Source: Ectobacillus sp. JY-23 (GTDB taxonomy: Bacteria > Bacillota > Bacilli > Bacillales > Bacillaceae_G). Taken from it: 64,000 bases of DNA. Shown here in pieces: positions 42,671-44,273 of this stretch. Both the position numbers and the translations under genes were made by a program. Within the stretch, counting starts at the first letter, position 1, and each line of letters opens with the position of its first letter. The stretch lies in contig NZ_CP095462.1 in assembly GCF_023022965.1 (NCBI RefSeq), forward strand, positions 434,001 through 498,000. The letters run 5' to 3'. The notes below the pieces were generated by a model, which was not told the origin of the DNA, did no database searches, and was given only the letters and a program-made list of their open reading frames with translations.

Positions 42671-42785
42671 TTAATAAGTGTCAATTAACATCATCGGGCT
42701 TTATCATCACCAATAGAAAAGCGGTAGTTGATTGATGTGTCAATTAAACTGCATAGTTAGAAAGAAAGCGAATGGGGGCAAATGG

Positions 42786-43613
42786 ATGGATCGAAAGGTT
42801 GCGATTGTAACGGGAGCTTCAAGTGGGTTTGGTTTTTTAACTGCGTTAGAGTTAGCCAAAAAAGGATTTCATGTTATTGCAACAGTAAGAACTATAGAAA
42901 AAGGCGCTGCGCTTTTAGAGCAGGCTAACTTACAAAATGTTAAGATTGTTCTCTACGAATTGGACGTGGCCTGTGAGACATCTTTAAAACAGTGGGAATC
43001 TTATGTAAGACAGCTACACCGAGTAGATGTACTTGTAAACAATGCTGGGTTTGCTATGGCAGGCTTTACAGAAGAGATATCCATCGCTTCTTATAAAAAA
43101 CAATTCGAAACCAATTTCTTTGGTGCTATTTCTGTCACACAAGCTGTGCTGCCACTAATGAGAAAAAGACAGAGTGGCTATATTATCAATATGAGCAGTA
43201 TCAGTGGACTCATTGGTTTTCCCGGTTTATCCCCCTATGTTGCGTCCAAGCACGCTTTAGAGGGTTGGAGTGAAAGCTTGCGTTTGGAGCTTAGGCCATT
43301 TGGTATTCACGTTGTCTTAATAGAACCCGGGTCTTTTCAAACCAATATTTGGTCTTCCGGTCGTGAAGTTTCACCTTCACAGCCAGATTCACCGTATTAT
43401 ACGTACATGCAACGATTGGAGCAACACATTTCTGCAGGAAGTTCGTCATTTGGAAATCCTTTAGAAGTCGCACAAAAAATTATACGTATTATAGAAACAA
43501 CAGATCCGTCCTTACGTTATGGAGTAGGAAAAGGTGTTTCTCTGACGATATGGATAAAAAAGATACTACCTTGGCGCATATGGGAAAAACTCGTCTATCG
43601 TCAATTGAAATAA
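42786..43613 (+). CDS. Short-chain dehydrogenase/reductase (SDR)
   Basis: This classical NAD(P)-dependent SDR of 275 residues has the Rossmann motif VTGASSGFGFLTALELA, the NNAG motif (LVNNAGFAMAG), catalytic Ser (NMSSISGLIG) and the Y-x3-K pair (YVASKHALEGWSESL). The C-terminal extension (ILPWRIWEKLVYRQLK) is basic and aromatic. The start ATG 42786 follows AATGGGGGCAAATGG; the longer frame lacks an RBS. The substrate is unknown. The dispersed repeat lies just upstream. Confidence 0.9.
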   Translation: MDRKVAIVTGASSGFGFLTALELAKKGFHVIATVRTIEKGAALLEQANLQNVKIVLYELDVACETSLKQWESYVRQLHRVDVLVNNAGFAMAGFTEEISIASYKKQFETNFFGAISVTQAVLPLMRKRQSGYIINMSSISGLIGFPGLSPYVASKHALEGWSESLRLELRPFGIHVVLIEPGSFQTNIWSSGREVSPSQPDSPYYTYMQRLEQHISAGSSSFGNPLEVAQKIIRIIETTDPSLRYGVGKGVSLTIWIKKILPWRIWEKLVYRQLK

Positions 43614-43730
43614 GGAAATTTCCCGTTTCTTATTATTTCCTCGGCAAGCGCAAAGTCTGCTAAAACCAGACAAATTCTATGATTTGTTTTTACATATTAT
43701 GTACTCATTCGTCATATACTGCGTACAAAC

Positions 43731-43812
43731 AAAAAAACTCTGCACAGTTTACGCCGGTGAGCTGCTTCCGTCAGGACCTGACCCTGTTCCGCGTGTAAAT
43801 TTGTCAGAGAGG
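43731..43812 (-). ncRNA. Compact SRP-like RNA (4.5S-type, complete domain IV)
   Basis: The minus-strand transcript would fold into one hairpin. The outer stem is CUCUGACA/UGU-G-CAGAG, the middle stem UUUAC/GUAAA, and the apical domain is exactly that of SRP RNA: helix GGGU/GCUC, symmetric loop CAGG/AGCA, helix UCC/GGA, tetraloop UGAC, and the asymmetric loop AACA/A below. The closing stem is followed at once by seven U residues, so it also works as a terminator. A perfect TATAAT (43825-43820, minus) lies about ten bases upstream; the -35 is poor. It is far shorter than the ~270-nt Bacillus scRNA and lies away from dnaX. Confidence 0.8.
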
Positions 43813-43819
43813 TAATTAT

Positions 43820-43825
43820 ATTATA
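43820..43825 (-). promoter_or_regulatory. -10 box of the SRP-like RNA
   Basis: TATAAT on the minus strand is partly duplicated (TATAATATAAT), about ten bases before the predicted 5' end. No clear -35 box is seen. Confidence 0.5.
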
Positions 43826-43952
43826 GCTCCGTTATTCTTATTTGCCGATAGCAGGTTCTTGGCAAGTAAACCTGTATTTTCCTTGTCATTTGAATTTTTG
43901 GAAACATTCGCGTTATAATAGCAAAGAGTTTGATACATAAAGGAGAATTTCT

Positions 43953-44273
43953 ATGGCGAAAATCCGAGTTTACCAACCAAAAGAAGAACACTTTGAGAGT
44001 ATTAAAGAGATTATTGATGTGCAAGAAGAAAATCCTTCACCTGAGCTACTTGCAACAATGTACAGCTGTGTACTGGAAACAGAAGAAATGACAATTCCCC
44101 CTGCGTATATGGAGGAAGATATTTTAATTGATTCCGTTGAAGGGATGCTCAATGCTTCTCCAAACAAAACAAAACATTTAGGTGCCTATGATGTAATTGC
44201 TGTTACAACAAAAGAAAAGCGTTTTAAAATTTTGCTTTTAGAAGATGAAGAATACGAGATTATTTCCGAATAA
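43953..44273 (+). CDS. Acidic hypothetical protein, 106 residues
   Basis: I do not recognise the family. ATG follows AAAGGAGAATTTCT. The protein is soluble and acidic (MAKIRVYQPKEEHFESIKEI), with a Pro/Glu-rich middle (EENPSPELLATMYSCVLETE) and beta-strand segments near the end (YDVIAVTTKEKRFKILLLED). It is convergent with mug. Strong RBS, composition and length support a real gene. Confidence 0.7.
   Translation: MAKIRVYQPKEEHFESIKEIIDVQEENPSPELLATMYSCVLETEEMTIPPAYMEEDILIDSVEGMLNASPNKTKHLGAYDVIAVTTKEKRFKILLLEDEEYEIISE

Follow-up and report, generated by a model that had tools for sequence, protein, structure and literature searches.

A compact Alu-less SRP-like RNA gene kept at one locus in Ectobacillus as a candidate second SRP RNA

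Bacterial SRP RNAs are divided into those with an Alu domain, typically from Gram-positive bacteria, and those without one, typically from Gram-negative bacteria (PMC4359368). In B. subtilis the Alu domain is reported to dock into the ribosomal factor site and to block elongation (PMC8137916), and SRP-linked pausing is suggested for this species, but not for E. coli, by the density of ribosomes past the first transmembrane segment (PMC4359368). The GTPase pair of Ffh and FtsY starts at the tetraloop of the RNA and moves to a distal site, at which a base of the RNA is inserted into the active site (PMC5454536, PMC4737761). A literature search, with the 2009 survey of the SRP RNA family and two key mechanism papers lying outside its scope and several sources available in part, returned no report of a second, compact SRP RNA in a cell of this kind, which is weak evidence of absence.

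The window analyzed here is a 64-kb stretch of the 3.9-Mb genome of Ectobacillus sp. JY-23 (G000). Its minus strand, on which all RNA features given below lie, encodes at 43812-43738 a hairpin of ~75 nt with a complete SRP domain IV, as read directly from the sequence. The predicted RNA start is near 43812, and the hairpin runs from 43809 to 43738, closed by a basal stem CUCUG/CAGAG (43809-43805 and 43742-43738); RNAfold gives a single hairpin as both the MFE and the centroid structure. The apex reads GGGUCAGG-UCC-UGAC-GGA-AGCAGCUC, with the tetraloop UGAC at 43770-43773. The two strands of the symmetric loop region, GUCAGG (43777-43782) and AGCAGC (43761-43766), are the putative binding site of the Ffh M domain; both are in upper case in the Rfam consensus. 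The asymmetric loop consists of AACA (43785-43788) on the 5' strand and A43758 opposite. Nearer the base, CAA (43801-43803), 28 nt before the tetraloop, and UGUG (43743-43746), 25 nt after it where 29 is canonical, form the two strands of a putative distal (FtsY/GTPase-docking) site, and beneath it the rod closes with a stem resembling a terminator. The direct reading and the fold thus bear out an earlier note on this DNA, which had described a minus-strand hairpin topped by SRP domain IV with an AACA/A loop; the TATAAT upstream and the U7 run after the base stem that it also mentioned are both present, at 43825-43820 and 43737-43731, respectively. The gene does lie away from the normal SRP locus, the large SRP RNA being about 2 Mb distant. 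The host, which the note took for a Bacillus, is an Ectobacillus and not a Bacillus in the strict sense: a 106-aa protein encoded next to the RNA has 98% identity with an E. antri protein and 75% with an E. panaciterrae protein.

The compact RNA was compared with the two Rfam families of bacterial SRP RNA. No family matched anywhere in the 64-kb window when Rfam was applied at its gathering thresholds, and the analysis therefore turned to a scan with a relaxed cut-off, to orthologues and to genome context. With the cut-off lifted, the small SRP RNA model (RF00169, Bacteria_small_SRP) aligns over its full length (positions 1-97) with 31.4 bits (E 6.7e-5 for a search of 361 bases against all families); model positions at the 5' and 3' ends stay empty, which indicates a shortened basal part. 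Over the whole genome, and up to an E-value of 10, this model finds two places, the canonical gene (78.3 bits) and the compact RNA (31.4 bits, E 1.7e-4), while the large SRP RNA model (RF01854), likewise up to an E-value of 10, finds only the canonical gene of about 264 nt (G000:C1:2471875-2472138, 242.4 bits). The features of long SRP RNAs, which according to the earlier note might lie hidden in the flanks, are consequently absent, and the compact RNA gives no match to RF01854 with its Alu domain 5' of the rod. Like the small SRP RNAs of the E. coli 4.5S type, it is a single hairpin without an Alu domain, with a domain IV comprising symmetric and asymmetric loops and an apical loop of four bases, and with a CAA/UGUG internal-loop pair at comparable distances, ~28 nt from the tetraloop in either direction (G000 has 28 and 25 nt). 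Unlike them, it scores below the cut-off, has a shortened base and a UGAC loop, and occurs in a cell that also has a large SRP RNA. With the latter, of the Bacillus scRNA type, it shares the domain IV apex (24 of 29 aligned nucleotides are identical) and the distance of CAA to the loop, which is 28 nt in both RNAs of G000, whereas the length and the Alu part of the large RNA have no counterpart. An origin by recent copying of the large SRP RNA of this cell was considered and rejected, as only the 29-nt apex aligns and the helix closers differ. The fold energy of the hairpin is ordinary (z -0.32 for the window RNA; -0.77, -0.84, and -0.14 for the three orthologues), so hairpin stability proves nothing and was rejected as evidence for an RNA gene.

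In two further genomes, G001 and G003, presumably E. antri and E. panaciterrae, an SRP-like RNA occurs in the same interval and in the same orientation, between the gene of the 106-aa protein, which has no Pfam family (plus strand, 43953-44273 in the window), and a short-chain dehydrogenase gene (PF00106; plus strand, 42732-43613, listed from its first possible TTG, the true start probably lying further in). Just past the stop of the dehydrogenase gene, the window contains a block (43614-43660; TTTGCGCTTGCCGAGGAAATAA on the minus strand) that is strongly conserved among the three Ectobacillus genomes and has no notable fold on either strand. The compact RNA is thus present at a shared locus in three of the four Ectobacillus genomes (G000, G001, and G003), which represent only two independent lineages because G000 and G001 are near-identical. 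An orthologue at the corresponding place of G002 was sought and rejected: the 106-aa gene there (58% identical) has other neighbors, and no motif-bearing RNA was found in the 700 nt upstream. Each of the genus genomes has a large SRP RNA (238-246 bits), and the remaining 15 genomes of the family, from three genera, have one RF00169 match apiece. The curated RF00169 cut-off of 40 bits is missed by all three compact RNAs (31.4 bits in G000, 27.9 in G001, and 39.3 in G003). By the test that the earlier note had itself named, a covariance model score below threshold, its proposal would formally fall; the orthologues sharing one place, together with the reversed model described next, nevertheless disfavor a chance resemblance.

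For this reversed test a covariance model (R1) was built from the three Ectobacillus RNAs alone, without any known SRP RNA. At an E-value of 0.1, 297 of the 299 Bacillales genomes have a match to it, the exceptions being G106 and the incomplete G222. Its best 30 places outside the genus comprise 22 that overlap RF00169 places, four that are large SRP RNAs according to Rfam (L098-L101) and four that are not comparable, so that all 26 comparable places are SRP genes; the SRP nature of the Ectobacillus RNAs can, on this sequence comparison, be recovered from them without reference to any known SRP RNA. The model gives 102.3, 102.1, and 86.2 bits on its own source RNAs and, among the matches listed, at most 35.9 bits outside the genus, and the Ectobacillus sub-family appears, among these matches, to be confined to the genus in our sample. 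Taken together, the compact RNA is very probably a genuine gene derived from an SRP RNA. That it functions as an Alu-less second SRP RNA beside the Alu-bearing one is the reading that we prefer, with a probability of roughly 0.6.

The pattern of conservation bears on whether the gene is still in use. The 21 proposed base pairs are all formed in G000, 20 of them in G001 and 19 in G003; one pair is changed on both sides in a compensatory manner (U-A to G-C) and three are changed on one side only. In the MAFFT alignment of the three RNAs the GG/CC helix of G003 is displaced by one column, and the pair broken in this way was counted as broken; an alignment of nine compact RNAs, which misaligns the 3' side of the distal site, was left out of the pair counts. 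GUCAGG and AGCAGC are identical in all three genomes, and between G000 and G003 all 19 positions of CAA, GUCAGG, AGCAGC, and UGUG are unchanged as against 37 of the 55 others (p 0.004), a test on motifs of the Rfam consensus that were chosen when the alignment had already been seen. A count over 35 columns (35/35) was discarded because these columns were picked after being seen. The identity over the whole RNA (60/81) is higher than in the spacer just upstream (23/48; p 0.004) but does not exceed that of all other intergenic sequence (166/258; p 0.14), and we read the conservation of the compact RNA as concentrated rather than general. The missed Rfam cut-off, the overall identity no higher than that of other intergenic sequence, and the lack of the RNA at the corresponding place in G002 are what one would see if a compact SRP RNA had been acquired once, had fallen into disuse and were now drifting below recognition. 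Such decay would hardly spare every motif position while the others change, nor keep nearly all pairs with one compensatory change, nor leave promoter, hairpin, and end in their proper order, and we consider a pseudogene improbable.

The distances from the loop are of interest for the part that the RNA may play in targeting. In all 30 canonical Bacillales SRP RNAs compared (L001 and L004-L032) a GGAA loop is preceded by CAA at 28 nt and followed by UGUG at 29 nt, three of them having a second UGUG at 27 nt. In the compact RNAs of G000, G001, and G003, CAA precedes the loop by 28, 28, and 27 nt and UGUG follows it by 25, 25, and 26 nt, the latter distances being 3-4 nt below the canonical one; of the 127,760 anchors that the window offers, 174 show CAA at 27-29 nt combined with UGUG at 25-29 nt. 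We take the CAA/UGUG pair of the compact RNA to be the distal site at which the GTPase pair of Ffh and FtsY docks. The tetraloop is UGAC in G000 and G001 and GGAA in G003. Among 398 genomes of the phylum, 26 contain the sequence GTCAGGNNNTRRCNNNAGCAGC, G000 being one of them, and none contains its reversed control; when 19 of these loci besides that of G000 were submitted to Rfam (six further matches had no locus and were left out), 18 proved to be large SRP RNAs, their loops reading UGAC or UGGC, and L104 was the exception. Other Bacillota thus have such loops in their large SRP RNAs, and UGAC in G000 and G001 does not have to be taken for a defect. These details also decide how much weight is given to the possibility that the RNA is a decoy or regulator, i.e., that it forms a poor targeting particle and titrates Ffh off the large SRP RNA, for example in one growth phase. 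The strictly kept loops for Ffh, next to a tetraloop (the FtsY contact) that varies between species and a UGUG that is too close by 3-4 nt, agree with such a role; CAA and UGUG, however, would be superfluous in a decoy and are kept in all three RNAs, and the variation of the tetraloop loses force where one variant is natural in large SRP RNAs and another is the standard GGAA. We regard a decoy as unlikely, if somewhat less so than a relic.

Upstream of the hairpin, a promoter-like TCGGCA-17-TATAAT (43848-43820; -35 box at 43843-43848, -10 box at 43820-43825) matches at 10 of 12 positions, with 1.1 such sites expected by chance in the region according to shuffles; the counterpart place of G003 has TTGGAA-17-TACAAT, for which the shuffles give a mean of 2.5. 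In both regions the promoter scores are close to chance level. Downstream, the U7 run at 43731-43737 probably marks the transcript end in G000, and a U-rich run is also found in G001. The hairpin with its U7 run could in principle be no more than an intrinsic terminator with an accidental likeness to SRP RNA, and a 67-codon TTG frame in the list of open reading frames (minus strand, 44024-43821) does end just upstream. This frame, however, runs antisense to the gene of the 106-aa protein and is otherwise unsupported, and the next longer minus-strand gene (UDG, 44842-44282) ends 470 nt upstream; a terminator scan of the region, the U7 run included, reported none. Behind the hairpin of G003 stands ACAAUCAUAUGAUUUCUC and no U-run, and farther downstream there is a strong, separate hairpin, in a stretch with a z of -4.94. 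A U-run is thus not shared by all orthologues, no plausible gene ends just upstream, and the similarity to SRP RNA goes far beyond what a terminator needs. Because the SRP part is kept while the transcript end differs between G003 and the other two genomes, the RNA is not merely a terminator, an explanation to which we give very little credence. Among the three readings offered by the earlier note, then, the terminator mimic is disfavored, and a second SRP RNA has the best support, from orthologues at one locus, domain IV, CAA/UGUG near their canonical distance, and tetraloops natural to SRP RNAs.

More than one RF00169 match was found, under strict filters, in 26 of 299 Bacillales genomes; scans over 40 genomes used stricter filters, and weak second copies may be missed. 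Of 21 extra SRP places that were cut out, 19 are full-length large SRP RNAs and two are compact (G244 and G080); those in G252 and G180 are also large, and two places (G160:C29 and G293:C26) were left out of the classification. Further compact extras occur in G037, in G022 (two) and in G002, which adds two large ones. Within the draw of 299 genomes at least six carry a compact extra (G000, G001, G022, G037, G080, and G244). Those of G002, G022, G037, G080, and G244 resemble the Ectobacillus RNA: they are single hairpins (81-92 nt), have domain IV and a CAA/UGUG pair (at 28-29 nt), and share their genomes with a higher-scoring SRP RNA. They differ in scoring above the Rfam cut-off, in having a GGAA loop, and in lying at other loci; with R1 they reach no more than 30.2 bits where listed, the two copies of G022 being absent among the matches listed. 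We read the gain of a second SRP RNA as recurrent in Bacillales, with the Ectobacillus RNA as a separate case kept at one locus.

Several of the extra copies have other RNA genes as neighbors. A second RNase P RNA directly adjoins the second SRP RNA in G002 (L038, 5843-6473), G037 (L040, 5984-6686), G080 (L076, 2014-2600), and G147 (L090, 2475-3289), and each of these genomes has another, higher-scoring RNase P RNA; the adjoining SRP RNA is compact in the first three and large in G147, and the two are separated in L038 by a tRNA gene (anticodon CUA). At G003:C12:105512-105759, G003 has one more RNase P RNA, which is partial and split into two pieces of 149.7 and 38 bits. Extra large SRP RNAs are clustered with 6S RNA in G140 (L091), G216 (L092), G112 (L075), G191 (L078), G002 (L036 and L037), G252 (L096), and G180 (L097), joined by tmRNA in L091 and L092, by tRNA arrays in L036 and L037, and by 5S rRNA in L096 and L097; these clusters could possibly be traveling sets of duplicate housekeeping RNAs. 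The two compact RNAs of G022 are nearly identical (L041, 5836-5916, and L042, 5939-6019), and each lies near an open reading frame that by eye resembles a tyrosine recombinase, the L041 copy also near a tRNA-Val gene. Three large contigs of the viral collection, putative phages, carry SRP RNAs near tRNA genes (L052, 497 kb, 57.7 bits; L058, 372 kb, 57.7 bits; L059, 290 kb, 58.7 bits). That the window RNA came from a phage or plasmid was considered and rejected, blastn of the 361-nt region giving only short phage and plasmid matches with E-values of 0.03 or worse; the exact apex pattern occurs in none of the viral contigs, and no donor was found for the window RNA.

From an RNA gene with these sites encoded and kept, we infer the following for the preferred reading, a second SRP RNA. 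The stand-alone gene would be transcribed from its own promoter as a minimal SRP RNA ending at the basal stem, which would bind the single Ffh of the cell through its symmetric and asymmetric loops, recruit FtsY through its tetraloop and allow the GTPase pair to move to the distal site for hydrolysis. G000 has three genes for SRP GTPases, one per type, which are taken as FtsY, Ffh, and FlhF from the lengths of their frames. Lacking an Alu domain, the compact particle would have no access to the ribosomal factor site, and the second SRP, sharing Ffh with the arresting one, would therefore target without elongation arrest; such sharing seems to us the most economical mechanism. More tentatively, and with rather less confidence than for the second SRP RNA itself, some Ectobacillus cells may possess two SRPs on one Ffh, one Alu-bearing and pausing and the other Alu-less and non-pausing, with the promoter of the small gene setting their ratio and arrest during targeting being regulated in this way.

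The compact RNA is filed as an SRP RNA variant outside both RF00169 and RF01854, because it misses the cut-off of the former and lacks the Alu domain of the latter while it passes the tests of homology. With an apex, a distal site, and a terminator-like stem, the three Ectobacillus RNAs come near to a natural minimal SRP RNA. If both kinds of RNA indeed operate in one bacterium, the purpose of the bacterial Alu domain and of elongation arrest would become directly testable.
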